A DNA stretch of 64,000 nt from Labia minor (taxonomy: Eukaryota > Arthropoda > Insecta > Dermaptera > Spongiphoridae): assembly GCA_963082975.1 (NCBI GenBank), contig OY720344.1, positions 81,642,053-81,706,052 on the forward strand, read 5' to 3'. How positions within the stretch are numbered: position 1 is the first letter of the stretch; each line of letters opens with the position of its first letter. Made by a program: the position numbers and the translations under genes. Under the pieces are notes generated by a model that saw only the letters and a list, made by a program, of their open reading frames with translations, did not search any database and was not told the origin of the DNA. Shown piece by piece: positions 13,987 through 61,698 of the stretch.

Positions 13987-14392
13987 TACACTGGAAATCT
14001 CACGCGCCAACACGTGACGTGGTGCCATCAACAAAGAGCCAAACACTCCACTATCCACTCGACTATCTTGCAAATTTGAATTTGATTAAATAATATTTAT
14101 TAATTTAAATTAAATTAAATTAATTAAATTATAATTTAATAAATATTATTTATAACATCAAAAACATCAAAATCTCAACATCGAAAATTGAATTGCTGAA
14201 AGTACCAGAATTAATTTTTTAACACTGGAAATCTCACGCGCCAACACGTGACGTGGTGCCATCAAAAGAGAGCCAAACTTTCGCTGGTTTAATAAATATT
14301 ATTTATTAATTTTAATTTATAATTGAATTAATTTAATTTAATTTAAATTAATATATGTTATTTAATCCAATTCAAATTTGCGAGATATGCTG
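13950..14392. repeat. Nested direct and inverted repeats
   Basis: A block of about 85 bp (CTGAAAGTACCAGAATTAAT through CACGTGACGTGGTGCCATCA) occurs at about 13,957-14,043 and again at 14,190-14,277. Between and beyond them, a segment starting near CCACTCGACTATCTTGCAAA (14,053) is matched in inverted orientation by 14,287-14,392, which ends AATTCAAATTTGCGAGATAT. The same end sequence recurs near 19,665 and near 55,300, so it marks a dispersed element. Confidence 0.65.
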
Positions 14393-28288: not shown

Positions 28289-29002
28289 TTAGGTTGGCAA
28301 CTAAGTCATTGCCGTTTTTGTCGATAGATTAAAATGATCCATTTCTGAAGGACCTAGTTACTGGCAACGAAAAGTGGATAGTCTATAACAATGTTACTCG
28401 CAAGAGATCGTGGGTGAAGCAAGATTAACCAGCCCAAACAGCATCAAAAGCAGAGATTCACCAAAAAAAGATTATGCTGTCAGTCTGGTGGGAATTTTGT
28501 ATTTTGAACTCATGCTACAGAACCAAACGATAAATTCAAATGTGTATGTTGAACAACTCGACAAACTGAAGGATGCTATTGAAGAAAAGCGGCCGGTATT
28601 ATCAAATCCGGAAGGTGTTGTTTTCCATCATGATAACGCAAGGCCCCACACATCTTTGGTTACTCGGCAAAAATTATTGGAACTGGGTTGGGATGTTTTG
28701 TCACACCCACCATATAGCCCTGACCTTGCACCTTCGGATTACCATTTGTTTCGTTCCATGCACAACTCTTTAAATGGTAAAATTTTTAACAACGCGGATG
28801 ATGTCAGATTACACCTAATTCAGTTTTTTAATAGCAAAGACCAGACATTTTACGAACGGGGAATTTTTAAGCTGCCAGAACGATGGAAAAAGGTCATCGA
28901 CAAGAACGGACAATATCTAATTGAATAAAGTTATAATTTTAAACAAAAATTCTGAATTTGCTTTCTTATTTGAAATCGGCAATGACTTAGTTGCCAACCC
29001 AA
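28289..29002 (+). mobile_element. Internally deleted mariner
   Basis: Ends are TTAGGTTGGCAACTAAGTCA and the complement of TTGGGTTGGCAACTAAGTCA, flanked by TA on both sides (28,287-28,288 and 29,003-29,004). At 714 bp it is about half of a full mariner; the 5' half of the gene, with the DNA-binding region, is missing. It lies 260 bp beyond the egr stop codon. Confidence 0.95.
28340..28928 (+). pseudogene. Mariner transposase remnant (D34D)
   Basis: The remnant starts in the catalytic core. The usual TGDEKWI is TGNEKWI here, so the first catalytic aspartate is lost. A stop follows WVKQD, and the frame changes before GILYFELM. From 28,410 the longest open stretch (172 codons) holds HHDNARPH and SPDLAPSDYHLF, whose aspartates are 34 residues apart, and it ends at a natural stop (LIE). 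It cannot encode a working transposase. Confidence 0.93.
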
Positions 29003-31166: not shown

Positions 31167-32480
31167 TCTATTTTCAGTGGCGCAGCCAGGGGGGGTTTTT
31201 GGGGGTTAACCCCTCCCGCCCCCAGGAGAGAAAAGAATATAAATTGCTGTATATTATGTACTATATTACAAATAGAAAAGAAAAAAAAAATTCTAAAAGT
31301 ATAACTTAGTGTATAATAAGTAAGTTTATTTGAATTTAAAAAAATTTTAACAAAAAAAAAAAAAATTGCTTATTTTTTCGTAAAGAATTAAATATAAGAA
31401 ATAAAAAATTATTTTATTATTTCTCCTAAATCATAAAAATCAAAAGACTTAATATAAGATTACTAGATGATTGTGAAATTTTCCAATTTGTCTATTATTT
31501 AAATATAAAATAAATAAAAATATTACTTAAATTCTAAATATTTTTTATTAATAATACATTAATTGCTAATTTCATAAAAATTATGAAGCGAAGACTAATT
31601 TTTTCAAAATGGAAACGGTTAAAAATCCATAAAAGTCAAAAATCTCTAAAACCGAAAATCCCCAAAAGCGAAAATCCCTAAATAAAAATATCGCTGACTG
31701 AAAAAATCCCTAAAAGAAAAAATCACTAGAAACAAATTTTTTCATTTTTGTATTAATTTTAATTGTGACTCAGAAAATTAAATCACAAGGTGAGCATGAC
31801 ACCCAGTTGCCTGAGACACGACCTCCCAAGGAGGTAATCGGGCCTTGACCGAAAGTAGGGAAAAATAGGTCAAAAAATACATACATAGGGCCCACACACG
31901 TGATTTTTCCAAAAAAAATAGGGGTGTCAAATTCGTATGTAAAATAAAGGGAATTTACTCAAATTCCATTTATTAGCATAGATTTTAATAGCTTAATGAT
32001 TCCAAATACAAAATACTCCATTGCACCGTATATTTCCCCAGGGAATATACAACGCAATTTGTGAAATTTACTATCATCAGAGATTGTCTTTTTCATTTTG
32101 CTCAATGCATTTATAGAAACATCAAATCAATGCAAGAAGTTTTGAAGCTCTATAATGATATACGTAGATAATCCTGACAACTCCACTCATTTACGAATTC
32201 TTGCAGCTTTAGTTTTTGTACCACCATATAAAAAAAGAGAAAATAAAAAAAAAAGATATATGTTAGTATAATAAGGAAAGGTGAATAACAATGTTAGGAT
32301 TAGTTTAACAACAAAAATATTAGAATAGTTAAAATTTAAATTATTTTATTTGTTTAATTAATACACATAAATATAAAAGAATAACTTATTTATAAATATT
32401 TTACACTTAAAATTTACAATAATTAATAAAAATATGTATATATTAATAAGTATATTTTATTAAATTATTAACAATAAAAT

Positions 32481-33328
32481 TCATGTAATTTTGGAGGTAT
32501 TTTCCATAATATGAGACTCCACTTTGTCATTGAAACAAATATTTTCGAAATCTATTAAGGGATGATTCTCTCTTAATTCTTTAATTTCTTTATTAATTTC
32601 TTCTTCCCTTTCAATTATTGAATTTAATCGATCTTCTTCAGAACTAAACTGTAAAAAAATTTATAAGCATATATATTAATTACCGATATTTTCTTAATAA
32701 AAATCATGTATTATTTTCTTTTCATATAAGAATAAAAATAAATAAAATATTGTTATAATAAAAAGTACTTACTTGTTCATATATTTTTAATATATAAGAT
32801 TTGGCTCCTGGAATATATTTTTTGTTATGCATATATTTAATAATCATTTCCTTTACTAAATAATTTTTTCTTTTACTTAATACCTAAAAAAAATGATAAA
32901 TAATAATTAACAAATGAATATTATAATATTTAGACAGATATATTTATATTCAAATGTAACCAATTGAATTTAATATATTATGTTTTTTTTCAATAAAAAT
33001 TAATTATAAATTAAATCTACTTACCCAGTCAATATTGGTGAGCAACATTTCCTTCATAAGGTCAAGTTTGATCAATTCATTTTTCAAATTAATCATCTGA
33101 AACAAAATAAAATATACTACTATATAATTTAAATAAATAATTATTATATTAATTTTTTAAAAAAAAATTACAATGAATTAAATTAATTGAATTTTGAAAC
33201 TTTAAAATATATAAAAAAAATCAATATAAAAATGAATAATTAAAAAAAAAAATATATATATATATATAAATATATTTTACCTTATCAATATAACTTGAAG
33301 TTAGATTTTCTATATTTTTCAATTCCAT
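32481..33328 (-). CDS. Unrecognised four-exon gene, copy 1 (132 aa)
   Basis: Exons are 33,281-33,328, 33,025-33,096, 32,773-32,883 and 32,481-32,648, with three GT-AG introns, all in phase 0. The donors of exons 2 and 3 are a strong GTAAGT. The protein starts MELKNIENLTSSYIDK and ends IMENTSKIT; it is small, Lys/Glu-rich and likely helical, with a charged stretch IIEREEEINKEIKEL (about residues 87-101) that could form a coiled coil. It has no signal peptide or membrane segment. I do not recognise the family. AATAAA on the minus strand at 32,456-32,461 follows the stop by 20 bases. The intact frame and clean splice sites argue for a real gene. It lies between the ends of the composite MULE. 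Confidence 0.72.
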
Positions 33329-34439
33329 ATTTAATAATTTTTATAAAATTTTAAATATGGTATATATCTCAGATATTTATAATGTCAAATGATAACTTCT
33401 AAACACCCACAGAGCACAGAGCACAGAGAGTGATCTATTCGTCAACGAAAAGATGTTTCTCTCGAAGAACTTGATCAACGAATGAATCTTAATTGTTGAA
33501 ACTTCCTTGAATACACAATTTGTTTTTAACAACAACATATGATTTGTTAAAAATTGTACTTTACCCTTGCCAAATGGGCGGGGGTCCTTTTGTCTATTTT
33601 TTTCTATTTTTGTCTATTTTCAGGTAGATGGATAGTTGTTTGGGACAAAAACCAAAAAATTCAATTGTACTAATCTATATTATAATTGTTTGTAATTTTC
33701 ATATTCTATTTATATATTTTTATTTAATCTATACAACTTTTAAAATGTAAATATTTAATTATATTTATTATTAATAGAAAATAAATTTACTTTGTTTTAT
33801 TAATATTCTGACCAAAATTGAAATTTAATTTTTTAGTCATCATAATATCATCATTTTAGACAAACATTAAATTTTCCTTGTAAAAATGTCACATCACTAC
33901 TAATAAAATAGTATTATGGAAAGTTGTTCTGTTTAAGTATATTTAAAATGGTAAAAAATACTTTCTTTTTTATTAATATTTAATAGAAATATAGGTTTAT
34001 TGACAAATTTTTGTTACTGCTTATACAAACGTAAATAAATTGAAATTGTATAAAATATTTCAAAAAAACATTAATAACAAATTGAATCATTTATTTACCT
34101 CCTTAAAGAGTTATTTATTAAATATTTTAATGTGTAAATATAATCGATATATAGCTAATATTAATATTAAATATAATAATTCTATAGACTGCATAAAAAA
34201 TGTAAAGATGAAAAGGCATCTTTGAAAATTATATTAGCGATCCATCGAAACGATTATAACTCTTGACACAATTTTTTTTTTTTCTCAATTATTTTTATAC
34301 TATAATTCAATTCTTTTTGTTAATCCTTCTTCAAAGCCTTCTTTAATAGATAATACATATATTTTATTTAAAAATTTAGTCAATTTTAAAAATATTGTTT
34401 TTGAATTTTTTAAAACTTAAATAATAGAAGTATTAATTT

Positions 34440-35045
34440 TTACCGACCGACAATAGTATTGTTTTCACACCAAATTTCACATGTGGAGATTTTTACATAT
34501 CTCCACGAATCATGCATTTTCTTAACAGAAAAAAGTATTTTTAGCATGATGTCTGTCCGTCCATCCGTATAGATGTGTACAGCCTGAACGGCTCAATGGA
34601 TTTTGATGAAATTTGGTATATTTACTTAATGCATCAGTGGGATGAATTGATCAACTTTTGGTGCAAATCCGGAAACCGGAAGTGGTAGTATAAGCGATCG
34701 ACGATAGGAAGGGAAGGGTTATTTTCACACCAAATTTCACATGAGGAGACTTTTTACATATGATCACGAATCAATCAATTTGCATTGGTTTTATAATCAT
34801 CTTTATTAGTTTTTTCTTAATTAAAATTATATGACGTCATCCAGCCATTCATGACGTCACAGCCTGGTCTTGCATATATATTATAAATAAAATAAAATTA
34901 AAAATGTTTATATTTATTATTTATGTATCCATATCTGTTTTTTATTACATTAATAGATATATTAAAATTATTTGAAATTGTTTCTGTAGCTGGAAATTTA
35001 TTTATTTCAAACCGTCGGTCGGTTCGGACCTGGCCACAGGTCAAC
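34440..35045. repeat. Dispersed repeat (family of 3,735-4,165)
   Basis: It carries the same ordered blocks as the 3.7-kb copy, including GCATGATGTCTGTCCGTCC, GATTTTGATGAAATTTGG, CCGGAAGTGG and GTCGGTCGGTTCGGACCTGG. Inside, CACACCAAATTTCACATG occurs twice (34,475 and 34,725), as does a palindromic ATGACGTCA pair near 34,830-34,860. Confidence 0.55.
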
Positions 35046-36414
35046 TTATTTTAAAAATATATTTAATAATAATAGGTTAGCCAATGATAATTAATATATT
35101 TAAACTATTGTATATATATCGATTGAAAAGTCATATGGGAACTACCACATATTCTTAATAATAATCGACCGGTATAATTTCATTATCGTTTCATATTTAT
35201 AAAAAAAAATTACATATATTTAGTATATACTTTATAATTACATGTATTTAACCTTTTTTTCATATTTCTATTAACTTTGATATTATTTTCCATTAATAAA
35301 CCAATACAAGACAGTTTACTTTTATTTCAAGTATTTTTATTCTTTTAAGATTCTAATATATTTTATATCTACATATTTATATGATTAACATAATTTAATT
35401 TCTTCTTTATAATTTGCATAAATTTGTTATTTCTGTTGTTATTTATTTAAAAATATCTTTAATGAAACATGTAACAGGCATTCATAATTCATTAATTTTT
35501 TTATTTGCATATTTATTGATTAGCCAATAACTAACCAAGTTTCTTGTTTGTCTTTCGCACGTGATCTACATATATATATTTAATTTTTTTTATTTGCATA
35601 TGATTGGTGCATGTGGTAAAATTTAAAAAAATACAAATATGCTAATTTTTAAATTGATATACAATTTAAAATTATTTTTTATTACTTATTTCTTCACAGG
35701 GCTAGTTAGTTACTTCTATTAGCACGCGATTGTACCCGTGAATTTTGCTATAAATAAAGCGTGGCCTAAACAAGCATTACACTTTGTCTCCGGACTTCAT
35801 AGCAGATACACACATCACATTATCAATATCTTTTTAATACAAAATTTCCATTTACACATTAAATAAGGTTTCTTTGTAACTTTATTCTTTATCGACTCTG
35901 TGGAATTGAAATTTGCTTCACTTCGTTTCCGGACTTCAAGGAGATATACACATTATCAATATCTTTTTAATACAATTTCCATTTACTCATTAAATATTAA
36001 ATTCAGAAATATAACAAGATAAATGTGGAGTTTATAAATACCTTATAATTATTTCATTTCATTTCATTGTATTTATTATATATATTATGTTTTCAGAAAA
36101 ATACTATTTTTCTTTTAAAATAAGTTACAAATTATTCTTTAAACATAATTCTCTTTTTCTTTATTAAAATTAACAATTTTATTTAATACTAGCTGCTCAG
36201 AGCGCCTTCGGCGCTCTTCACACCTAGACGGGGGCTCCGCCCCCTGTACCCCCGAGTGGTACATAGTATTTGGTTGAAAGTAGTAAAAGGTTTTCATCCA
36301 TTTTGTTTCAATCCGTATATTACATAAAACATTCATTTCTTTTTGTGTTCTTATTAAAAATCTATTTTAATTTAATCAGTAAATTAATTATATATATTAT
36401 TATTATTGTATATG

Positions 36415-36960
36415 TTATATCTATCTATCTATGTGGCTCAAAGATACTCGAAAGTTCTTGGCCGCAACAACCACATTTCTCCAATTGTCCCTATCCTAAG
36501 CCCTTGTCCCATCTCTCTTACGTCCCTTCCTACGCGTCATTGGTTTTCCAAGCGGACGTTTTCCAATCGGTCTCCCCACCAATATCTTTTTCCTCTCCCA
36601 TTCTAGCCACGTGCCCTGCCTATCGCAGCTTTTTCCCTTTTATAACCCTAACTATTTCTGAAGATGCAGAGAGACCATGCAATTTCTTGTTATGCTGTCT
36701 CCCCCATTCCCCGGTGACCTCATCTTTCTTTGGCCAATAAATGCAGGGAAGAATCCTATTCTCAAATACTCTGAATCTACTCTCATCTCCCAGGGTCATA
36801 GACCATGCCTCCCACCCATATAATGCAACAGGCAAAATAATTTTTTTATATATTCCCTTTGATAATAATTTTGAAGAGATAAGCCTCTTTATTGCAAGAT
36901 AACAAGTCGTTTCCCGATTGCAACCCCGATTTAAATTCTTCTCAAATATTATTATCCTTC
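36415..36960 (-). mobile_element. LINE 3' end nested in the Helitron
   Basis: Minus-strand frame ALYGWEAWSMTLGDESRFRV, then PKKDEVTGEWGRQHNKKL and HGLSASSEIVRVIKGK, matches the LINE at 17,555. The 3' end is ATGTGGTTGTTGCGGCC...GAGCCACATAGATAGATAGA, a short-repeat tail. Upstream the alignment fades (LLSKGIYKKI-like at about 36,850). The reading frame is broken. Confidence 0.8.
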
Positions 36961-38486
36961 GTGATTACATTCAATTTTTCTACATATTCAAATTCTACAT
37001 TTTGTATCTTAAGATTTTGTATGTTAATACTCTTCCTCTTTGTTACTAAATATTTTTTCTTATCACTATTAATTTCAAACCTCCATTAATTTTTCCTCGC
37101 TATCTGCAATTGCAATTTCCTAATCTCCTATTATATTTAAGTCGTCTGGGTAACCTAACATTTTACAATTGATTTCCGCATCTTATTCTTTCTTTACTAC
37201 CTTCAAGACAAATTTGAAGATCAAAATTTGAAGAAGTTTATGCTGATCTATATTGAGTCATGTGTATGTTTTACTAAAGTCTACAAATAATTAGTGAACA
37301 GAAATATTGAATTCGCAGTTTTTTTCCTAATATCTGTCATAATGAAAATATCTTAATTAATGTTGATCGATTTGGCCTGAACCCGCAATGATATCTCCTA
37401 ATATTTCCTCCGCTTATGGTTCTTAAGTATTTTCTATGTTATAATAGTGAAATAGAGTAATATTTCTTGATCATTACATTTTGATATTTTATTTTCATTG
37501 CTAGATTATTATTGAATATTTTTAATTATAATAAAACTTGAGAAAATGCAAAAATAGAGACTTGAGACAATTTATAAAAATTAACGGTATAAAACTATAG
37601 ATAAATTACCAATATATACATTCATTAATAGTATTAATTTAAATTAATTGATTTATTTGTTTTTTTATTATTAAGTTCATTTATTAATTTTTTTAGATCA
37701 TAGTTATTTTCCTCCCTTAAAAGAAACTTATCTAATTCTGTGGTGCCAGGGGATTTGAAAATTATTAGTCGCAATATGAAGATTTCGCTTACAGTTTCTG
37801 TCATGTCCGACCTCCGTCCAACAGTTATTTCCCTCAAGTTTCTTGATTCTCTTAATCATGTGATCTATATATTTAATTTTTTTTGATTCATTGTAATAAA
37901 ATTTAAACAAATAAAAATTTTCACTTTGTTAATTTATATAAATTTCAATTTACACTGATTGTGATTGATACGCTTTGCCAATACTCTGAATAATTTGTGT
38001 ATAGAAATATTGAATGTTCTTAGCGAGAGAGAGATTTTTTAACCTTTCACTTTCATATAGAAAAGAAGAAATATTCAAATATATAGAAAGAATAAATAAA
38101 AATTAAGTTAATATAAATATGATCTAAATATTTTATTAAATTAATGAAAATGGGAACTTTTAGAATAAATGATTTAATTGAATTGATATTTAAATATTAG
38201 AATTTAAAATAAAAAGGGAAATATTATAATAATTCTTTTATTGGGAATCGCTATGATAATTCATTGTTTGAAATAATTCCGCTAGGCCGACAGTGAGCCG
38301 CGAGCTGCTCTTGAATGAACAACACGGAGAATTATCTAAACTTTAAAAAATTAATTTCTGCGGTTATTGATAATATATTAATAAAATTTATAGCCTATGT
38401 TACTCTAGAGGTATATAAGAATATTGTGATGTAATTTCAAAGAAATCGGTTCAGCCAATTCTGAGTCTATAAAATAGTAATTTTCC

Positions 38487-38499
38487 GGACAGACAGACC

Positions 38500-38550
<51 letters not shown>
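38487..38550. repeat. (GACA)n microsatellite
   Basis: An almost perfect GACA array inside the 5' part of the Helitron. Confidence 0.95.
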
Positions 38551-38551
<1 letters not shown>

Positions 38552-38884
38552 TGAAAAATTCTAAAGTCACTTTTGGATTCTAGAGGTCATGAAACGCGAA
38601 GATATGCAAAAATTTTTAAATTCTGAGCAATGTGCAGACAAAAACCTTTTTTTATATATATAGATTATCTATTGTACGTATATAAAAGTTACTCTATTCA
38701 CTAGCATAATGAATGTCAATTACGATTTATTTGCCTACAATTTCACTTTCTTTTAAGAATCCATTGTCCTTAATGAAAATTTTATAAATAATTTACCAAT
38801 CGAAATTATTGAAATTATATTTAACAAATTAGATATTTAACAAAAAATATTTATTTAATTGTTTTTCTTTAGTTTGATATTAAC

Positions 38885-39579
38885 CAGTGGCGTGCCTAAG
38901 GGGGGGAGGGGGTGTGGTCCGCACCGGGCGGCACATATCTTTGGGCGGCATTTTTTATATTTAGTTATAGTTGTAAAAAACAACTTATTCATTTCATATT
39001 TATTTTTCTTTCTTTCTTGAATAATAAATGATTATTATGATTATTATAAGTTTACTATTTGATTTATATAAATTATGATCAACTATATGATTTCGAATAT
39101 TATTCCTCGGTGTAGATAAATGCATTTTAGTGTAAATTTTGAATTCTAATTCCAAGAAAAGGATAATAATTTTATTTTATTGTATTCATTAAAATTCGTT
39201 GAATTCGTAAACACATCTTTAAGATTTTGTTCGGCAAAATTATCTTCGTTCTACAATGAGTCAATTAAGAGTACAAAATCTTGCAATATTGTCAATAGAA
39301 CAAGAAATTACAAATAATATAAATTTTGAGAGCATTATACACGATTTTTCTAGTATGAAAGCTAGAAGAGTAAATAAATATTATATAAATATGTTTACGA
39401 GTGCATACAAATATATGTAAAAAAATTTACTCTCTGTTTATTAATTAATATTGATTAAATAACTTAATAATTTATTTATGTGTATTAATTTATAAAAACC
39501 ACTATTTGATTGACTTATAATAAAAAGGGCGGCAAACTGTAGATCGCCCCGGGCGGCAAAAGTTCTAGGTACGCCACTG
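38885..39579 (+). mobile_element. Deleted hAT element with ZMYM1-like C-terminus, copy 1
   Basis: The exact 8-bp duplication ATATTAAC flanks it (38,877-38,884 and 39,580-39,587). Ends are CAGTGGCGTGCCTAAGGGGG and the complement of CAGTGGCGTACCTAGAACTT. A short frame from 39,256 reads MSQLRVQNLAILSIEQEI and goes on to HDFSSMKARRVNKYY, the end of a hAT dimerisation region. Nothing else of the transposase remains. Confidence 0.92.
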
Positions 39580-39732
39580 ATATTAACATTCTTTAAAATG
39601 TACTATTTTCAATTAATATGTAAATATATCTCTAAATTTATATCGGAAAATCACAAAATTATTATTAATTATTATAGCTATGGAATTGAGTTAGATTCAT
39701 TGATTCATACCTATGAACTTTAGTGTGTCATC

Positions 39733-40690
39733 CAGTGGAGCAACCAAGGGGGGGGGGGTTTGGGGGTTAAACCCCCCCCCCCCCAGGAGAGAAAAAAATA
39801 TAAATTGCTGTATATTATGTACTATATTACAAATAGAAAAAGAAAAAAAAATTCTTAAAGTATAACTTAGTGTATAAAAAGTAAGTTTATTTGATTTTAA
39901 AAAAATTTTAACAAAAATAAAAATTGCTTATTTTTTCGTACAGAATTAAATATAAGAAATAAAAAATTATTTTATTTTATTTCTCCTAAATCATAAAAAA
40001 CAACATTTGCACCGTATATTTCACCAGGGAATATATAACGCAATTTGTGAAAATTACTATCATCAGAGGTTGTCTTTTTCATTTTGCTCAATGCATTTAT
40101 AGAGACATCAAATCAATGCCAGAAGTTTTGAAGCTCTATATTGATATAGATAATTCTGACCACTCCACTCATTTACGAACTCTTGCAGCTTTGGTTTTGG
40201 TACCACCATCAAAAGTCAGTGCAGTCTACCAAGCATTACAGGGTAAAATTTCGTGATCTTTTTTCTTACTTCGAGCGCACTTGGCTAGGTGAACAATTTT
40301 TGGCTGGCTTTTATGACCCCGAATTCGACATTGGAACATTGGAACATCTACGATGCCACTTTGATGGGTTTGCCTCGAACAAACAATGCATTGGAAGGTT
40401 ACAACAATGCTCTTCGTTCACGCTTAGGAGGTTACAAGACATCAGTATGGAACCTGATTAAGCAAATCCATATTGAGCATAACCTTATCTCTTTGGAAAT
40501 CTGTCGTAAGGTTCGTGGTAAGAAGCCCCTGATCCACCAAGGAAACGATTCAGCGACTCGCATGATGAGCTTCTGACCATAATGAAGGCAAACCATGAAA
40601 AATGGGACGCTAAAAAAACAGAAGGAACAGATGTGATGACACCAAGCATGATGTATAACTACCTCATTCAAGTCTCTTCGACTAATCATT
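39733..40690 (+). pseudogene. MULE transposase remnant at the MULE-B/MULE-A junction
   Basis: The left end CAGTGGAGCAACCAAGG is followed by G and C runs. Coding pieces lie in three frames: GCLFHFAQCIYRDIKSM and LRTLAALVLVPPSKVSAVY (40,070-40,245), FSYFERTWLGEQFLAGFYDP, and WNIYDATLMGLPRTNNALEG through SRLGGYKTSVW, ending LIQVSSTNHY before a stop at 40,693. GCLFHFAQCIYR and GLPRTNNALEGY are Mutator-like transposase signatures. The N-terminal half and the first acidic residue are missing, and the frame is shifted at least twice. Confidence 0.85.
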
Positions 40691-41549
40691 ATTAAATAAG
40701 TAAAAAAAAATTAGGGAAAATTTTTATTTTGGGATTTATTCTTTTAGGGATATTTGCATTTAGGGATTTTTTCTTCGGGATTTTTACATGATTTCTTTCA
40801 AAATAACCTGCCACTATGGGCGGAGGAAAAGCTTTCGAAATCTTAAAGTAGTTTTTTATAAATAACTCCTTTATTATTAAGTTTAGGTAAAAATGAATAT
40901 AATGACTTTTAGTAAATTCGATTCAGTATAAATTTAATACGATAGTATGATAATTCCATAAAAATCGGTATTTATTAAGAAAATCAATAAAATGTGCTTT
41001 GACACCTCTTTAAACTACCCTTACTTATGGTTCGATCTTGTCCAAAAACAATCCAATCCCCGCCCATCATTCCCAAAAAAATCATCTAAATATCAAATTT
41101 CAAGACAATATCTCATTTTGTTTAGACGTAATCTCGGTAACGAGCCGGTTCAAAATTTTTTTTTGACGTTTTGGATTCAGAACCGTCTGAAAAGTGGAAA
41201 TCTCGAAGAATCTCGGAGCAAAAATTGTCAAAATTTTCCGATCCTCGTATAAGCTATCCTTATTTCATGACGAAAGCTAAAATGATTTACTTATAGCTGG
41301 AAAAAAAATTTTTCTTTCTAAAACTGTGAATACGAGTAAATAAAATACAAAATTAAATTTTTTTGCCAGATTTTGTAAAATCCGTGTTTCATTTACAAAA
41401 CTTTTTTAAATATTTAATATAAAAAAAAATCTTAATGAAAATTTGTCTTTGAGAGAGCCCGGGGGGGGGGGGGGCGCCTAGGTGGAGCGGCTAGTCAAAC
41501 CCCCCCCCCCCCCCCAGGATCAAATCCTGGTTGCGCCACTGTCTATTTT

Positions 41550-42525
41550 ATTATTATTATTATTATTTTTATTTTTAAATATCGATGCACTCCCTCGAAC
41601 TCTAGTCGCCTTTCCTTTGTTTTTTATCCAAAATTTTTACATAGTTGATTTATCAGAACATACAAAAGATGAAAGTTACAATATTTACAAAATTAAATTG
41701 TCTCATTTATTGACACGCTATTTCAAATTTTACTTAATTATATTTAATTTTATTTACATTTTTTTTCTTTTTTTTACTTAAGCATATTTTAAGTTTAATA
41801 TACATATAATCAGGGTTGTGAATGTCAACTCACCAGGAAAGGCTAGCAAAACCTGAAGATTGCAAGTGAAGGGAGGGGGAGGCATAGAGGGTAGGGTGAT
41901 AATATTATTTATTTACGGTTTTTCTTATAAGTTACCTTGTACAATACATTATATAATTATAATGATACAAATATTTACATTGTTTTTAAAGATATATATA
42001 TATTTACAAAAGATTGTTTGAACCATCATTTTATTTTATTTTATGTACCTTTTTCCATTCTAACTTTTCTTTATTGGATATTTGCATATTATATCTCCAT
42101 ATTCTGTATGGATCTCTTCCATCTAGGAATGTATCATGAGTTATAGATTTATATATCACCTAAATACATGATAGATAATTGGAATTCCATTATCATTTTG
42201 TATATATCCATGTGTATCGAAGAATATGAACGCCTCTGGTGAGATGAAACCGCTTTTTAATGTATTTTTGAAATATGGCTCGTTTTGGAGGATTGATCAG
42301 CTAATGAGAATATTTGGAACCTGTGCAACTTGGAAATAAAGGTTCTAGTGTTATGTGACCGAATTATGGTGTTACGGTCACAGTGTGTGAGTCAATATGG
42401 CTTTTATATCTACATAACAAAAAAAAATGTTAAATATTTATTTTATAATTGAATTGTCATATAATAAGAATGATTTGTTATTAAGATATTGAATTTTAGG
42501 AAAATACAATGTATATTATATTTAT
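41550..42525. other. Single-copy spacer between the composite MULE and the donor segment
   Basis: No gene was recognised. A short repeat shared with 20,490-20,580 lies at 42,345-42,420. Confidence 0.55.
42345..42420. repeat. Short dispersed repeat shared with 20.5 kb
   Basis: TCTAGTGTTATGTGACCGAA...ATTATGGTGTTA and GTGTGTGAGTC...TATGGCTTTTATAT match the copy in the egr intron. Confidence 0.45.
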
Positions 42526-42780
42526 ATATAAAAAAAGAGAAAATAAAAAAAAAAGATATATGTTAGTATAATAAGGAAAGGTGAATAACAATGTTAGGAT
42601 TAGTTTAACAACAAAAATATTAGAATAGTTAAAATTTAAATTATTTTATTTGTTTAATTAATACACATAAATATAAAAGAATAACTTATTTATAAATATT
42701 TTACACTTAAAATTTACAATAATTAATAAAAATATGTATATATTAATAAGTATATTTTATTAAATTATTAACAATAAAAT

Positions 42781-43628
42781 TCATGTAATTTTGGAGGTAT
42801 TTTCCATAATATGAGACTCCACTTTGTCATTGAAACAAATATTTTCGAAATCTATTAAGGGATGATTCTCTCTTAATTCTTTAATTTCTTTATTAATTTC
42901 TTCTTCCCTTTCAATTATTGAATTTAATCGATCTTCTTCAGAACTAAACTGTAAAAAAATTTATAAGCATATATATTAATTACCGATATTTTCTTAATAA
43001 AAATCATGTATTATTTTCTTTTCATATAAGAATAAAAATAAATAAAATATTGTTATAATAAAAAGTACTTACTTGTTCATATATTTTTAATATATAAGAT
43101 TTGGCTCCTGGAATATATTTTTTGTTATGCATATATTTAATAATCATTTCCTTTACTAAATAATTTTTTCTTTTACTTAATACCTAAAAAAAATGATAAA
43201 TAATAATTAACAAATGAATATTATAATATTTAGACAGATATATTTATATTCAAATGTAACCAATTGAATTTAATATATTATGTTTTTTTTCAATAAAAAT
43301 TAATTATAAATTAAATCTACTTACCCAGTCAATATTGGTGAGCAACATTTCCTTCATAAGGTCAAGTTTGATCAATTCATTTTTCAAATTAATCATCTGA
43401 AACAAAATAAAATATACTACTATATAATTTAAATAAATAATTATTATATTAATTTTTTAAAAAAAAATTACAATGAATTAAATTAATTGAATTTTGAAAC
43501 TTTAAAATATATAAAAAAAATCAATATAAAAATGAATAATTAAAAAAAAAAAAATATATATATATATAAATATATTTTACCTTATCAATATAACTTGAAG
43601 TTAGATTTTCTATATTTTTCAATTCCAT
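42781..43628 (-). CDS. Unrecognised four-exon gene, copy 2 (132 aa)
   Basis: Exons are 43,581-43,628, 43,325-43,396, 43,073-43,183 and 42,781-42,948; coding sequence and splice sites appear identical to copy 1, so the predicted proteins are the same. Upstream sequence is also identical up to the 30-bp difference at about 44,536. That difference lies roughly 0.9 kb before the start codon, so any promoter close to the gene is present in both copies. The family is unknown to me; the charged C-terminal half (EREEEINKEIKELREN) suggests a helical, perhaps coiled-coil, protein. Confidence 0.72.
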
Positions 43629-44769
43629 ATTTAATAATTTTTATAAAATTTTAAATATGGTATATATCTCAGATATTTATAATGTCAAATGATAACTTCT
43701 AAACACCCACAGAGCACAGAGCACAGAGAGTGATCTATTCGTCAACGAAAAGATGTTTCTCTCGAAGAACTTGATCAACGAATGAATCTTAATTGTTGAA
43801 ACTTCCTTGAATACACAATTTGTTTTTAACAACAACATATGATTTGTTAAAAATTGTACTTTACCCTTGCCAAATGGGCGGGGGTCCTTTTGTCTATTTT
43901 TTTCTATTTTTGTCTATTTTCAGGTAGATGGATAGTTGTTTGGGACAAAAACCAAAAAATTCAATTGTACTAATCTATATTATAATTGTTTGTAATTTTC
44001 ATATTCTATTTATATATTTTTATTTAATCTATACAACTTTTAAAATGTAAATATTTAATTATATTTATTATTAATAGAAAATAAATTTACTTTGTTTTAT
44101 TAATATTCTGACCAAAATTGAAATTTAATTTTTTAGTCATCATAATATCATCATTTTAGACAAACATTAAATTTTCCTTGTAAAAATGTCACATCACTAC
44201 TAATAAAATAGTATTATGGAAAGTTGTTCTGTTTAAGTATATTTAAAATGGTAAAAAATACTTTCTTTTTTATTAATATTTAATAGAAATATAGGTTTAT
44301 TGACAAATTTTTGTTACTGCTTATACAAACGTAAATAAATTGAAATTGTATAAAATATTTCAAAAAAACATTAATAACAAATTGAATCATTTATTTACCT
44401 CCTTAAAGAGTTATTTATTAAATATTTTAATGTGTAAATATAATCGATATATAGCTAATATTAATATTAAATATAATAATTCTATAGACTGCATAAAAAA
44501 TGTAAAGATGAAAAGGCATCTTTGAAAATTATATTAAACAATAATAAATGCTTTTATAAAATCTTAGCGATCCATCGAAACGATTATAACTCTTGACACA
44601 ATTTTTTTTTTTTCTCAATTATTTTTATACTATAATTCAATTCTTTTTGTTAATCCTTCTTCAAAGCCTTCTTTAATAGATAATACATATATTTTATTTA
44701 AAAATTTAGTCAATTTTAAAAATATTGTTTTTGAATTTTTTAAAACTTAAATAATAGAAGTATTAATTT

Positions 44770-45375
44770 TTACCGACCGACAATAGTATTGTTTTCACAC
44801 CAAATTTCACATGTGGAGATTTTTACATATCTCCACGAATCATGCATTTTCTTAACAGAAAAAAGTATTTTTAGCATGATGTCTGTCCGTCCATCCGTAT
44901 AGATGTGTACAGCCTGAACGGCTCAATGGATTTTGATGAAATTTGGTATATTTACTTAATGCATCAGTGGGATGAATTGATCAACTTTTGGTGCAAATCC
45001 GGAAACCGGAAGTGGTAGTATAAGCGATCGACGATAGGAAGGGAAGGGTTATTTTCACACCAAATTTCACATGAGGAGACTTTTTACATATGATCACGAA
45101 TCAATCAATTTGCATTGGTTTTATAATCATCTTTATTAGTTTTTTCTTAATTAAAATTATATGACGTCATCCAGCCATTCATGACGTCACAGCCTGGTCT
45201 TGCATATATATTATAAATAAAATAAAATTAAAAATGTTTATATTTATTATTTATGTATCCATATCTGTTTTTTATTACATTAATAGATATATTAAAATTA
45301 TTTGAAATTGTTTCTGTAGCTGGAAATTTATTTATTTCAAACCGTCGGTCGGTTCGGACCTGGCCACAGGTCAAC
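44770..45375. repeat. Dispersed repeat, duplicate of 34,440-35,045
   Basis: Same sequence as copy 1 at offset 10,330. Confidence 0.6.
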
Positions 45376-46738
45376 TTATTTTAAAAATATATTTAATAAT
45401 AATAGGTTAGCCAATGATAATTAATATATTTAAACTATTGTATATATATCGATTGAAAAGTCATATGGGAACTACCACATATTCTTAATAATAATCGACC
45501 GGTATAATTTCATTATCGTTTCATATTTATAAAAAAAAATTACATATATTTAGTATATACTTTATAATTACATGTATTTAACCTTTTTTTCATATTTCTA
45601 TTAACTTTGATATTATTTTCCATTAATAAACCAATACAAGACAGTTTACTTTTATTTCAAGTATTTTTATTCTTTTAAGATTCTAATATATTTTATATCT
45701 ACATATTTATATGATTAACATAATTTAATTTCTTCTTTATAATTTGCATAAATTTGTTATTTCTGTTGTTATTTATTTAAAAATATCTTTAATGAAACAT
45801 GTAACAGGCATTCATAATTCATTAATTTTTTTATTTGCATATTTATTGATTAGCCAATAACTAACCAAGTTTCTTGTTTGTCTTTCGCACGTGATCTACA
45901 TATATATATTTAATTTTTTTTATTTGCATATGATTGGTGCATGTGGTAAAATTTAAAAAAATACAAATATGCTAATTTTTAAATTGATATACAATTTAAA
46001 ATTATTTTTTATTACTTATTTCTTCACAGGGCTAGTTAGTTACTTCTATTAGCACGCGATTGTACCCGTGAATTTTGCTATAAATAAAGCGTGGCCTAAA
46101 CAAGCATTACACTTTGTCTCCGGACTTCATAGCAGATACACACATCACATTATCAATATCTTTTTAATACAAAATTTCCATTTACACATTAAATAAGGTT
46201 TCTTTGTAACTTTATTCTTTATCGACTCTGTGGAATTGAAATTTGCTTCACTTCGTTTCCGGACTTCAAGGAGATATACACATTATCAATATCTTTTTAA
46301 TACAATTTCCATTTACTCATTAAATATTAAATTCAGAAATATAACAAGATAAATGTGGAGTTTATAAATACCTTATAATTATTTCATTTCATTTCATTGT
46401 ATTTATTATATATATTATGTTTTCAGAAAAATACTATTTTTCTTTTAAAATAAGTTACAAATTATTCTTTAAACATAATTCTCTTTTTCTTTATTAAAAT
46501 TAACAATTTTATTTAATATTATCTATTGTACGTATATAAAAGTTACTCTATTCACTAGCATAATGAATGTCAATTACGATTTATTTGCCTACAATTTCAC
46601 TTTCTTTTAAGAATCCATTGTCCTTAATGAAAATTTTATAAATAATTTACCAATCGAAATTATTGAAATTATATTTAACAAATTAGATATTTAACAAAAA
46701 ATATTTATTTAATTGTTTTTCTTTAGTTTGATATTAAC

Positions 46739-47433
46739 CAGTGGCGTGCCTAAGGGGGGGAGGGGGTGTGGTCCGCACCGGGCGGCACATATCTTTGGGC
46801 GGCATTTTTTATATTTAGTTATAGTTGTAAAAAACAACTTATTCATTTCATATTTATTTTTCTTTCTTTCTTGAATAATAAATGATTATTATGATTATTA
46901 TAAGTTTACTATTTGATTTATATAAATTATGATCAACTATATGATTTCGAATATTATTCCTCGGTGTAGATAAATGCATTTTAGTGTAAATTTTGAATTC
47001 TAATTCCAAGAAAAGGATAATAATTTTATTTTATTGTATTCATTAAAATTCGTTGAATTCGTAAACACTTCTTTAAGATTTTGTTCGGCAAAATTATCTT
47101 CGTTCTACAATGAGTCAATTAAGAGTACAAAATCTTGCAATATTGTCAATAGAACAAGAAATTACAAATAATATAAATTTTGAGAGCATTATACACGATT
47201 TTTCTAGTATGAAAGCTAGAAGAGTAAATAAATATTATATAAATATGTTTACGAGTGCATACAAATATATGTAAAAAAATTTACTCTCTGTTTATTAATT
47301 AATATTGATTAAATAACTTAATAATTTATTTATGTGTATTAATTTATAAAAACCACTATTTGATTGACTTATAATAAAAAGGGCGGCAAACTGTAGATCG
47401 CCCCGGGCGGCAAAAGTTCTAGGTACGCCACTG
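46739..47433 (+). mobile_element. Deleted hAT element with ZMYM1-like C-terminus, copy 2
   Basis: This is the duplicate of 38,885-39,579, with the same ATATTAAC flanks. It was already present when the segment was duplicated. Confidence 0.92.
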
Positions 47434-47586
47434 ATATTAACATTCTTTAAAATGTACTATTTTCAATTAATATGTAAATATATCTCTAAATTTATATCGG
47501 AAAATCACAAAATTATTATTAATTATTATAGCTATGGAATTGAGTTAGATTCATTGATTCATACCTATGAACTTTAGTGTGTCATC

Positions 47587-49033
47587 CAGTGGAGCAACCA
47601 AGGGGGGGGGGTTTGGGGGTTAAACCCCCCCCCCCCCCAGGAGAGAAAAAAATATAAATTGCTGTATATTATGTACTATATTACAAATAGAAAAAGAAAA
47701 AAAAATTCTTAAAGTATAACTTAGTGTATAAAAAGTAAGTTTATTTGATTTTAAAAAAATTTTAACAAAAATAAAAATTGCTTATTTTTTCGTACAGAAT
47801 TAAATATAAGAAATAAAAAATTATTTTATTTTATTTCTCCTAAATCATAAAAAACAACATTTGCACCGTATATTTCACCAGGGAATATATAACGCAATTT
47901 GTGAAAATTACTATCATCAGAGGTTGTCTTTTTCATTTTGCTCAATGCATTTATAGAGACATCAAATCAATGCCAGAAGTTTTGAAGCTCTATATTGATA
48001 TAGATAATTCTGACCACTCCACTCATTTACGAACTCTTGCAGCTTTGGTTTTGGTACCACCATCAAAAGTCAGTGCAGTCTACCAAGCATTACAGGGTAA
48101 AACTTGGTGATCTTTTTTCTTACTTCGAGCGCACTTGGCTAGGTGAACAATTTTTGGCTGGCTTTTATGACCCCGAATTCGACATTGGAACATTGGAACA
48201 TCTACGATGCCACTTTGATGGGTTTGCCTCGAACAAACAATGCATTGGAAGGTTACAACAATGCTCTTCGTTCACGCTTAGGAGGTTACAAGACATCAGT
48301 ATGGAACCTGATTAAGCAAATCCATATTGAGCATAACCTTATCTCTTTGGAAATCTGTCGTAAGGTTCGTGGTAAGAAGCTCCTGATCCACCAAGGAAAC
48401 GATTCAGCGACTCGCATGATGAGCTTCTGACCATAATGAAAATTTAAATCTAATACGATAGTATAATTCTCATAAAAATCGGTATTTATTAAGAAAATCA
48501 ATAAAATGTGCTTTGACACCTCTTTAAACTCTTTAAATTACCCTTACTTATGGTCTGATCTTGTCCAAAAACAATCCAATCCCCGCCCATCATTCCCAAA
48601 AAAATCATCTAAATATCAAATTTCAAGACAATCTCATTTTGTTTAGACGTAATCTCGGTAACGAACCGGTTCAATATTTTTTTTTTGAAGTTTTGGATTC
48701 AGAACCGTCTTGAAAAGTGGAAATCTCGAAGGATCTCGGACCAAAAATTGTCAAAATTTTCCGATCATCTTATAAGCTATCCTTATTTCACGAGGAAAGC
48801 TAAAATGATTTACTTATAGCTGGAAAAAATATTTTCTTTCTAAAACTGTGAATACCAGTAAATAAAATACAAAATTAAATTTTTTTGCCAGATTTTGTAA
48901 AATCTGTGTTTCATTTATTTAATATAAAAAAAAATCTTAATGAAAATTTTTTTGAGCCCGGGGGGGGCGCCATATATAGGTGGAGCTGCTAGTCAAAACC
49001 CCCCCCCAGGATCAAATCCTGGTTGCGCCACTG
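47587..49033 (+). mobile_element. MULE-B, both ends present
   Basis: Ends are CAGTGGAGCAACCAAGG and the complement of CAGTGGCGCAACCAGG, flanked by the exact 8-bp duplication GTGTCATC (47,579-47,586 and 49,034-49,041). At 1,447 bp it is deleted: compared with 39,733-41,541 it lacks about 345 bp after 48,437. G/C runs adjoin both ends. The TIR-proximal CCAGGATTTGATCCTGG is itself a palindrome. Confidence 0.92.
47901..48430 (+). pseudogene. MULE-B transposase remnant
   Basis: It has the same Mutator-like pieces as at 40,047-40,576 (GCLFHFAQCIYR, FSYFERTWLGEQ, GLPRTNNALEGY), split over three frames, ending at the deletion after GNDSATR. It is non-functional. Confidence 0.85.
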
Positions 49034-49041
49034 GTGTCATC

Positions 49042-54480: not shown

Positions 54481-57400
54481 CTAAAGTGAAAATGTTCTTC
54501 TATTAGTAAATGAGATCATTAAAAAAGTTAATTAAAATGTAAAGTAATTATTTACCATGTCATTAAATGTTAAATTTCTCACACAACCGGCAAATCCTTT
54601 TTGGGTTGGAATATGATCCCAATGAAGATGATGACCAAGTTTATTGAGATTGACAGAGGGTGACACACCACCAAGTTGGAGTGGGCCATTTACGTTGAGG
54701 AATTGATTTGGTTTTACTGGCGCTTTTAATGTGAGACATAAGCTTGTTTTACAACTGTCGACTTTAATTTCAATGCTCTATAAAAATACATTAAAAAAAA
54801 TAATTAGTATTAAATTTATATGTTCAATCTAAAATGAAATTTTTTACTGACTGTTGGATTCCAATAGATATCAATCTGATGAAAATTATTGTCTGTGAGT
54901 TTAATTTCTTTTTGATCTGCAAGTACAGTGCCAGAGCCATAGTCCATATATAAATAGGGGTAGCCATCACGAAGTTCCAAGGCCATGAAATCTAATCATG
55001 AAAAGTAATCAGAAATTAAAATATTATTATTACAATAACCATTAAAAAGAAGCAACGATAAAATTTTATTTTATTATTAAACATAATAATATATTTTTAT
55101 TTTGAAATTTATTAGGCAAAATATACTTTTAGTATAATTTGTATTTAATACTAAAAGAATGAGATTCAATTAACAATTATAATTATAATTAAATATTAAA
55201 AAAAGAAAATTATGGTTAAAATGTATTTTTTTATTAAATTTTCAAAAATATTAATTTGAAGAAAAAACAACGGTCTTTTTTACTATCTCGCCTGTGTTAA
55301 TTAATCCAATTTAAATTTGCGAAATAGTCGAGTGGAAACAATCCAGATTTTTTATTTTGTTTAAAAATTATCTTTAAATTAATAAATTTCATTGATTATT
55401 TACCTTGAACAGGAAGATGTGGATTATATTCTAAAGGTCCATGGTATAAGATAAGACCATTTTCTGTATGAGGTTTAATTTCAAGAGAGAGATGAGAATT
55501 CTCACAGGCTTGAAGAGGTGGATAAAGAGCCCAACCATCACCCCAAAATCCAATAGAAAGAATTTCGCAGTGAGGACCTTCATAACCCTCAGGGCATTCG
55601 CATCTAAAAACAATTAAAAATAATATTTAAAAAAAAAAAATTTCTAAAATTGATATTCTTTTAAAAGATTAATTGATTAATTAAACTGACTTATCATCAA
55701 TAGGTGTTCCTCCATTATGACAAAAATCTGGTGGAGTAGATATGCAATTGCACCAAGGATCCACAACGGCTCGAACGCCAATAAAAGATGAAGTATTGGT
55801 GAAAACAGCATAAGGCATATTGCTCTTGTTTAAAAAGTTAGAACAAGCCTTATCCGATTCACAAAAATTATTCTCCAAAATACATTCATTGATATTGACC
55901 ATTAAAACTGTAAATCCAAATTCACGTTCAAGTTCACGTCGATGTTCACTTGTCAAGCGGTTAATCAATTCAGGATGATAGTAGGGGGATCCATGGGCAG
56001 AAAATCGTACATCCACTACGGAACGATTGGTACTATGTGGGGAATTTAATACTGTAAAAAGATCCACATTTTCTACAGATGCATTGAGAATTGTTGCTAA
56101 ACGGATTCGGAGAAGTTCTCGTTTACTCAGCTAAAAAATTAAATATAAATTATATTAAAATAAAAAAAAAATTAAAGAAAAAAATCTTTTTAAAGAATTG
56201 ATTAGATGATAATTTTTAAAATTATCATTTAAATTATATTTGTAATTCTCACCCCTTTGGGACCAGGAGCAACAAATTCTTCTGGAGTAATTCCTCCAAT
56301 TCGGATGGAACCACTTTTATCAACGGCTTCTTCAGGAATTTCTTTTACTGTAACATTAACTGTCGCATTTACTGTATGTTTGTGAATCAGTTCACTTTCT
56401 TCTGTGACAGTGAATTCAAGGATAAAAGTAGCATTTGTTGTTCCTCGTAACATGAAAATCATTCCAGTTTGCGGATCTAAATTAAAATTACTATGTGGTC
56501 CATAGGTGAAGGCAAAATGTTTATCATTTAAATCCCAATCATCAGGATCTTCTACATATACTCTTCCAATTTGAGTATCAGGATTTTGTCCCTGAAAATT
56601 GAAGAAAAAAAAGATTTAAATTTATAATTCATTATTGAAATAATATATGTATATATAAATGAAAGTGTATAAAACATACCTTATAATTATAAACAAAAAT
56701 ACTACTTCTGCCAGGTCGCATTTCGTTATCGTTTCTATCTCCAATAACGACGTGGAGGGTTGATGTGCCGGTCATTGTAGGCTTCCCATTGTCACTAATC
56801 TCGATTGGTATAAAATACTCTTTTATTTCTTCACGATCAAAAACAACTTTTGACACTAAATTCGATTCTGAAAATTAAAAAAATATAATTATTTAAAGTT
56901 ATATATATATATACAATTTATTGAAAAAATATTTTTTTTTATTTTAAATTAGGAAAAGTCATGAGAAATGTTTTATTTTTATTTCAAGAAAAAAAATTGA
57001 AGGATGCAAAAAGAAAAAAAATGAAAAAAGTGAGAATTTTTCCAATTCAAATTCTAGATGTGCATAAAATAAATTCTTCTATTAGCTTACGCTTACGTCT
57101 GCTATATCCTGAAGCAGCTTGCGCAAATACGCTTAAAATGAAAAAGCCATATTGGTTGGAAGATATTCTAATTAAAATTAATTTAAAAAATGTTTTTTCT
57201 AATATATTTTTTTTTCAAAAATTTAAATTATTAATATATAATTAAAAATATATTTAATAAATGTGAAATTTTGATTTTAATTAAACTTCAAGAAGTTTTA
57301 TATTTAAGCAAGGTATTTATTTTTCGAGCAAAATTATTTTATTGATTTTTATTTATTTATTATTCTTCTATCTATTATTTAAATAAATTATAAATTTCAA

Positions 57401-60400: not shown

Positions 60401-61666
60401 AAAATTTAAAAATTAAATGAAATTAATTTAATAGAAAAAATTTTTAGTTATGAATCTATTTCTTGAAAATTGCCGACATGTTTAAAAAATTCACATTTTA
60501 GAGTTTTTTTTTAAGACGAAGGGTCCTTCCTTTATAGGCCGCATTTATAGGGAAAATAATTTTAATTTGTTTTTTTCTTAATTAAAGTATTTAGAGTAAC
60601 AGTGTTCAATACACCACTGTTCATATATAGATATTCTAACTTTTGAAAAACAATTAATTTCTAATTAAATTGTGAGAACTATTAGAATAAATAAATAAAT
60701 TAAAATATTTGATTATTTTAGAAATTAATATAAAAATTTATATTATATTATAATAATTAATTGAGGGAATTGCTAGAATTAATATTTTAGTAATGATTGC
60801 CGAATATGTATGGACAGGTTTTTTGAAGAGGGTTTTTTATATTTATACATTTTTAAGGATTTTAAAAATAAAAAAAAATTAATTTTTGACTTCTTGTATA
60901 TATAAATATATTGGTGACTAATAGACTATGTATAAATATGAATTAATTACAAAATAAGAATAATAGAATGGAATATTAATAATAATTGGCCCAACCAATT
61001 TATTATTATTTCCAGATCGACCCGAAATATTCGTTAATATAATATACCAATTCATAAATTATTTTAGAGCAGCGTTCGGGGAACCGGGGTAAATTACCCC
61101 AAATGGGATAGAATGATATTTTTGGGGGTAAAAATGAAACTTTTGTGAATAAAATGTCTATGTATATTATTAATTTGCTATTTTATAAACCTGTTAGTAT
61201 TTTTACAAATTAAATTTTTAGTTATTGTTTTCTTTTCAAAATTATCATGGGGGGCTATAATAGGTAAGTTGCTAAAAAGAGGCGATTTCGATTTTTTTTT
61301 GCTCTTCACCAAGGGCTAATATCAACTTACACAAAAAATATTTTGGGGTAATGATTAAAAAAGTTCCCCGACCGCTGTTTTAGAGTATCGAATCTCAAAC
61401 TACTTACTTTGCTCTTAATGTAGCAATGGGATCCTTATAATTCGTGAAATTTTCTGGTAATACTATAACATGATCCTCAGGATAAATATAAGTAAATGAG
61501 GGTGCTTTTCGATTCGATTCAATAACATTAATGGAAACCTCCATGGTATGAAAAAGAGGAATATCTCCTTGATCCGTGGCTGTTACATTCATCGAGAAAG
61601 GTTCCGCTGGTTTAACCTAAAAAATTTTCATAATCATATTTAAATGAATGAAACTTATTACTTATT

Positions 61667-61698
<32 letters not shown>

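Follow-up and report, generated by a model that had tools for sequence, protein, structure and literature searches.

Organization of the locus

This analysis concerns a gene of the dermapteran Labia minor that lies between the two ends of a DNA transposon, and the adjacent donor from which it was copied. The window, by which we mean the whole stretch of 64,000 nt analysed here, is C1:81,642,053-81,706,052 in a 604-Mb assembly of 71 contigs. Within it, a single insertion of a probable Mutator-like element (MULE), designated MULE-A, is interrupted by a copy of the segment 42,526-48,440 that is in direct orientation and 99% identical, as found by self-comparison of the window. The donor segment comprises a complete four-exon gene together with the left part of MULE-B, an element of the same family as MULE-A, and the donor, the broken element and the product all lie within 18 kb. 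The features are as follows.

31167-31174 (+): left target-site duplication of MULE-A, TCTATTTT (window comparison and 8-mer count)
31175-32227 (+): left piece of MULE-A, ending in GTACCACCAT, the final AT of which is common to the donor side of the join
32226-39732 (+): copy 1 of the captured neighbouring DNA, through the left MULE-B duplication (99.2-99.4% identity to 42526-47586)
32481-33328 (-): copy-1 gene, exons 33281-33328, 33025-33096, 32773-32883 and 32481-32648, with an open 399 nt spliced frame
36189-38664 (-): Helitron-like insertion, unique to copy 1 (5' TC; 3' hairpin GAGCGCC-GAA-GGCGCTC, then CTAG; A^T site)
39725-39732 (+): left MULE-B duplication inside copy 1, GTGTCATC, without a right partner
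39733-40527 (+): MULE-B-derived left part in copy 1, bearing MULE-B-private variants
40528-40586 (+): 59 bp stretch identical in both copies, the likeliest passage from MULE-B to MULE-A
40587-41541 (+): right piece of MULE-A, including 338 bp that MULE-B lacks and ending in the right terminal repeat
41542-41549 (+): right target-site duplication of MULE-A, TCTATTTT
41550-42525 (+): 976 bp spacer from MULE-A to the donor, missing from copy 1
42526-47586 (+): donor segment (copy 2), through the left MULE-B duplication (window comparison)
42781-43628 (-): donor gene, exons 43581-43628, 43325-43396, 43073-43183 and 42781-42948
47579-47586 and 49034-49041 (+): MULE-B duplications, GTGTCATC on both sides
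47587-49033 (+): MULE-B, with both ends present, internally deleted when compared with longer members of the family

The termini of MULE-A, CAGTGGCGCAGCC at 31,175 and TGCGCCACTG at 41,541, belong to one insertion, as an earlier sequence-only reading of this DNA had claimed; they are flanked by the matching duplication TCTATTTT at 31,167-31,174 and 41,542-41,549, an arrangement that is expected of Pack-TIR (TIR, terminal inverted repeat) and Pack-MULE elements. This 8-mer occurs 17 times in the window in total, and the chance that two random 8-mers from the window match is 2.1e-4. The sequence GTGTCATC is found at 39,725, 47,579 and 49,034, and at one unrelated site (63,644), which bears out the further claim that it stands on both sides of the donor MULE-B but in the copy has its left occurrence alone. 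Because the MULE-B duplication is paired in copy 2 and left-only in copy 1, the downstream copy is the donor, and the possibility that copy 1 is the older of the two is ruled out.

Comparison of the two copies

The inner part of the composite element is indeed a near-identical copy of the downstream segment: in the window self-comparison 32,226-36,194 matches 42,526-46,524 at 99.2% identity and 38,650-40,586 matches 46,507-48,440 at 99.4%, both in direct orientation. Over the approximately 5.03 kb that lie outside the MULE part the copies differ by two substitutions and one 30 bp indel, a further listed mismatch at 38,663, produced by misalignment at an insertion edge, being left uncounted, and the scarcity of differences shows that the duplication event is young. 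There are five real substitutions in all, three of them within the 854 bp MULE part (one-sided P = 0.024). The copied tract amounts to approximately 5.86-5.91 kb, made up of the 5.03 kb or so of neighbouring DNA and about 0.8 kb of MULE-B, which corrects an initial estimate of about 5.6 kb.

Copy 1 also contains a 2,476 bp Helitron-like insertion that has no counterpart in copy 2 and was overlooked in the earlier reading; it is part of the reason why the composite is 10.4 kb long. The insertion at 36189-38664 has a 5' TC, a 3' hairpin followed by CTAG, and an A^T site without a duplication, which we take to be the hallmarks of a Helitron. It is younger than the duplication, the precise empty site being present in copy 2.

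The nested repeats of the donor segment, including an element at 46,737-47,434, were copied along with the gene. That element, 0.7 kb long and represented at 38885-39580 in copy 1, has CAGTGGCGTGCC ends resembling the ends of the MULE family and an 8 bp duplication, ATATTAAC, and had inserted before the duplication took place. A second repeat of 0.6-0.65 kb within the captured segment (34439-35053 and 44769-45383), starting ACCGACCGACGATAG and ending GGTCAACTT, is also nested in other copies of the transposon family (L024, L032, L037, L042 and others among the family stretches described below).

The captured gene

The captured gene has four exons and three GT-AG introns, and its 399 nt coding sequence is identical in copies 1 and 2. 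The predicted product is a coiled-coil-like protein of 132 aa that has no match in Pfam at E<=0.1 and nothing better than E 0.27 in PDB. The internal DNA that is not transposable-element (TE) sequence copies a parental locus, 42526-47586, at 99% identity, a relationship that is likewise expected of Pack-TIR and Pack-MULE elements.

A search of the genome for further copies bounded by both MULE-A ends had been proposed from the sequence alone. When the gene segment was compared with the assembly and the best 40 of 55 candidates were considered, only two near-full copies were found, both of them in the window, and the remaining 40 matches were at most 249 bp long with 69-90% identity. Thus there is no additional near-full copy among these candidates of the kind that a Pack-MULE transposed as a unit would have left. 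Transposition of the composite was considered and rejected, as this search gave no second locus and the composite occupies MULE-A's own site.

It is very improbable that the arrangement is an artefact of assembly, either a false duplication or a chimera of two haplotypes joined in transposon sequence common to both. Such an error is made conceivable by the position of the MULE-B to MULE-A junction in repeated DNA, but the copies differ by the 2.5-kb Helitron-like insertion, the 30 bp indel and five substitutions, and the junction at 32,226 links unrelated sequences and is not readily produced by an overlap error. The locus is, moreover, on a 126-Mb contig, and the search just described yielded no near-full copies of the gene segment beyond these two.

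The transposon family

Using the left part of MULE-B as a query we obtained 1,893 candidates and scored the best 40, two of which were the window's own, leaving 38 places outside the window. Our sample covers 37 of these places in 38 stretches (L009-L046, with L026 and L028 from the same place and C1:30330552 left out) and represents a small part of the family. The longer copies are about 2.4 kb, and most start CAGTGGCGCAACCAGG. Exact 8 bp duplications flank 9 of the 14 copies in a first set (L010 and L015 being in low-complexity sequence) and 6 of the 14 copies with a right end in a second. The family therefore combines terminal inverted repeats with CAGTGGCGCAACCAGG ends and duplications in the size range of MULEs, which is 8-11 bp (PMC6446971), with 8 or 9 bp reported for an active mosquito MULE (PMC5225508).

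In searches with the family remnants no MULE match was found in Pfam, and a MULE fragment gave no match in PDB and no relative in viral_contigs. The coding remnants contain GC-FHF and PRTNNALEGYNN motifs, which we take to be motifs of MULE-like transposases. Elements of the hAT superfamily also have 8 bp duplications and CAG ends, so that these two characters of the family are compatible with hAT too; the remnants were found to contain no hAT domain. Assignment to the MULE superfamily is thus likely, being drawn from the 8 bp duplications and the motifs rather than from a profile match.

Counting by eye, we observed 20 fillers of at least 100 bp between family blocks, distributed over 15 of the 37 places. 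At the edges of 14 of them the family sequence either overlaps (13 fillers, by 2-56 bp) or lacks 1 bp (one filler), which suits nested insertions for most of the 14, although the 139 bp filler in L045 consists of family sequence in inverted orientation. The other six (in L027, L028, L030, L037, L040 and L046) replace 10-1055 bp of family sequence.

Position of the switch from MULE-B to MULE-A

In order to map the passage from MULE-B into MULE-A sequence, we compared the composite and MULE-B with 15 family copies in one alignment, defining as private those bases that stand against at least 80% of the 15; indels and private bases were also compared across up to 28 other family copies. Aligning the two MULE right halves to this end was called for in the sequence-only reading, which had placed the switch at 40,209-40,250. 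Over 40,210-40,586 copies 1 and 2 differ by three substitutions only, where the family divergence has a mean of 4.8% and a minimum of 2.0% (15 aligned members, 91 pairs). A 13 bp deletion at 40,237 is common to copy 1 and MULE-B and absent from all 28 other covering copies (L032 carries a different deletion, of 15 bp, at this position), and a 2 bp insertion at 40,526-40,527 is likewise common to the two and found in 0 of 27 others. Copy 1 has MULE-B-private bases at 40,219, 40,222, 40,225 and 40,510, and up to 40,527 it has 16 MULE-B-private substitutions altogether (two in the terminal repeat, nine in the left half and five in the middle); one of the five middle sites, 40,508, is not strictly private, as the MULE-B base is present in 4 of 27 other copies. 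At 40,252 copy 1 agrees with the family against MULE-B, and at 40,249 it has a base private to itself.

Beyond 40,586 the situation is reversed. Copy 1 continues with 338 bp that are absent from MULE-B, agrees with the family at 16 sites where MULE-B has a private base and has 10 private bases of its own, with both elements differing from the family at three further sites. Since the MULE-B-private variants in copy 1 reach 40,527 and sequence that MULE-B lacks is present from 40,587, the switch most likely lies at 40,528-40,586, and the earlier placement is probably wrong. The earlier position would require that MULE-A already carried each of the six changes in the middle region that are strictly private to MULE-B, namely four bases, the deletion and the insertion. 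With the switch at 40,528-40,586, MULE-A would have lost approximately 0.32-0.39 kb.

The two elements differ at 21 of 411 sites in their left halves, and the left piece of MULE-A has 1 of the 11 MULE-B left-half private bases (39,893). After 40,586 copy 1 agrees with MULE-B against the family at four bases (40,977, 41,166, 41,227 and 41,479). Bases common to MULE-A and MULE-B against the family indicate that the two have some common subfamily ancestry.

Unequal crossing over, whether of MULE-A with MULE-B or between homologues, would also be expected to leave a homologous junction of this kind, and if it were followed by a microhomology deletion of about 2.3 kb the final sequence would be identical. 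The crossover would produce a tandem duplication of the MULE-A right half, spacer, gene segment and MULE-B left part, and the deletion would then remove the MULE-A right half and spacer from the left copy; in a variant with the order reversed, a deletion haplotype may recombine with a normal one. We consider this two-step route unlikely. Two separate events are needed, and it would have to be a coincidence that the deletion starts inside MULE-A, 0.32-0.39 kb to the left of the crossover; the assembly search recovered no third copy or intermediate. The repeats, furthermore, are approximately 5% diverged, and in the view of the authors of a study of yeast segmental duplications, divergence of long terminal repeats (LTRs) suppresses unequal crossing over (PMC2518615), while in Drosophila the duplications at homologous stretches (>=200 bp, 95% identity) are 51 of 2211 (PMC4056370).

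Origin of the composite element

At the other end of the copied tract, the left piece of MULE-A stops at 32,227, beyond the equivalent of which most family members carry on with family sequence, and 2 bp (AT) are common to the donor side of the 32,226/42,526 join. The composite thus has one homologous and one microhomology junction, a loss of 0.32-0.39 kb from MULE-A, and a donor that starts 976 bp past the right duplication of MULE-A, all of which fits repair of MULE-A by way of MULE-B. We favour, with a probability of roughly 0.6, homology-anchored gap filling completed by a 2 bp microhomology join. In this proposal a break or stalled fork would have arisen in MULE-A, then an element of about 2.4 kb, and the right broken end would have lost up to approximately 0.39 kb, much as would be seen at a resected break. 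That end would have paired with the homologous stretch of MULE-B some 6 kb downstream, with at least 59 bp of perfect identity (corresponding to 40,528-40,586), and copying to the left would have taken in the left part of MULE-B, then the duplication on that side of it, then about 5.03 kb of flanking DNA with the whole gene. The AT would then have served to join the new end to the broken end of MULE-A on the left, and the 2.5-kb Helitron-like element would have entered copy 1 later. The mosaic structure, the direction of copying, its recent date and the intact duplications can be read directly from the two copies; the break, the invasion, the origin in a single event and the copying by a polymerase, whether by synthesis-dependent strand annealing or break-induced replication (SDSA/BIR) or with a template switch, are what we infer from them.

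Published data provide parallels for several of these steps. For animal Pack-TIRs, 160 of 281 are reported to lie no more than 15 kb from their donors, the median microhomology is 2 bp, and breakpoints are skewed to the element interior (PMC8277862). The yeast authors attribute LTR-anchored segmental duplications to Pol32-dependent copying (PMC2518615).

One event also suffices for fork stalling and template switching or microhomology-mediated break-induced replication (FoSTeS/MMBIR), in which a fork on MULE-A would jump to 42,526 at the AT, run through the gene into the left part of MULE-B, and return by homology. The product, with its one microhomology and one homology junction, would be the same, and such a step belongs to the FoSTeST model (PMC8277862). 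This differs from gap filling only in direction and in the lesion, and has no distinguishing sequence mark here; we regard it as improbable.

Several observations weigh against homology-anchored gap filling. The 2 bp microhomology alone means little, since at least 2 bp were seen at 24% of random joins. MULE-A might also have had some of the middle MULE-B-private bases, its alleles between 32,227 and the switch not being visible because its own sequence there was lost. At 40,249 and 40,252, which are 4 bp apart, copy 1 reads like one other family copy (L011), and this may be a small MULE-A-derived patch that falls outside a simple account with one switch; alternatively, the two bases could be later mutations. 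The MULE part is enriched for differences between the copies (three of the five substitutions in 854 bp, P = 0.024). The gap in MULE-A is approximately 14-16% of the element, compared to a published median of 4.6% for Pack-TIRs (PMC8277862), and in yeast the divergence of dispersed repeats lowered duplication overall (PMC2518615). Finally, the product of the two-step route is identical. The one-sided repair first proposed from the sequence thus agrees with the structure, the copying direction and the adjacency of donor and product, but its switch was probably misplaced and the same sequence can be reached in two steps.

Other features of the window

An interrupted hAT-like transposase at 7465-10199 (-) consists of two open pieces, with a BED-type zinc finger and a hAT dimerisation region that score below the Pfam cut-offs. 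A Mariner-type transposase fragment lies at 28389-28928 (+; Transposase_1, E 1.4e-9), a tandem duplication of approximately 0.56 kb, 96% identical, is present at 12863-13987, and exons of a DE-cadherin (shotgun)-like gene occupy 55681-62087 (-; Ig_Shg, PF24811, E 4.7e-30), indicative of an arthropod host.

Comparison with known systems

How DNA transposons acquire genes is debated because it is rare for one locus to preserve the donor, the broken element and the product. In the present case each of them is there, the junctions indicate that one end relied on homology to a sibling element, and the outcome is a young, intact duplicate gene whose mechanism of birth can be inferred. A 2021 survey found one family of Pack-TIRs, Ssk-FB4, in populations of flies, and from the reference genomes of animals it reports no Pack-MULE (PMC8277862). 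In a 2026 survey of arthropod MULEs the size expansion of some is possibly tied to capture of host genes, and gene capture is named as a general effect, with no individual case described in its passages on capture (PMC13359780). Our literature searches, covering titles and the starts of abstracts, with subscription journals mostly outside their coverage, returned no animal Pack-MULE. We suggest, with somewhat less than even confidence, that this is the first animal Pack-MULE to be described, and that it belongs to a class which a published search filters out, in which a broken element finds its donor via a sibling copy beside a gene, so that a whole intron-bearing gene and its upstream DNA come to sit between intact ends, movable by transposase in principle.

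The resemblance to the Pack-MULEs of rice and other plants that was noted at the outset holds for the anatomy, host gene sequence lying between MULE ends, but not for mobility. Plant Pack-MULEs capture about 300 bp, often from other chromosomes, and a third are multicopy (PMC8277862), whereas the composite is single-copy, lies in cis to its donor at the site where MULE-A had inserted, and shows no sign of having transposed. As only about a third of the plant elements have transposed as a unit, this behaviour is not strictly required (PMC8277862).

The duplications anchored by LTRs in yeast that are ascribed to BIR are similar in that a broken end near a repeat invades a sibling repeat, from which copying extends into adjacent DNA. 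In yeast this yields large intrachromosomal duplications of the 115-kb class (PMC2518615), and here copying ended within approximately 5.9 kb and rejoined the broken element. Gap repair of Drosophila P-elements with ectopic filler, as described in PMC8277862, is also similar, a break in the element being filled from nearby, although that case involved artificial activation of transposase and a different superfamily.

The closest parallel is with the single-copy animal Pack-TIRs attributed to transposition-independent gap filling, in which recently copied non-TE DNA from nearby lies between the two ends of one TIR element (PMC8277862). The cis donor, breakpoints inside the element, 2 bp microhomology at one join and single copy are common to both; the composite is distinct in having one homologous join via a second element copy beside the donor, in having taken a complete intron-bearing gene, and in the larger proportion of the element lost. 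The Pack-TIR survey limited inserts to 100-5000 bp and required that no TE lie in the 100 bp flanking the donor (PMC8277862), and a capture like that in MULE-A would have been discarded by these criteria, as MULE-B adjoins the donor and is partly included, and the copied DNA is about 5.9 kb, or about 8.4 kb with the Helitron-like insertion. The composite, in other words, works like a gap-filled Pack-TIR, yet is outside the operational filters of that survey. Were this route a frequent one, it should be possible to predict the genes captured from TE-TE homology next to them, and any survey that excludes TE-flanked donors will have overlooked the class.

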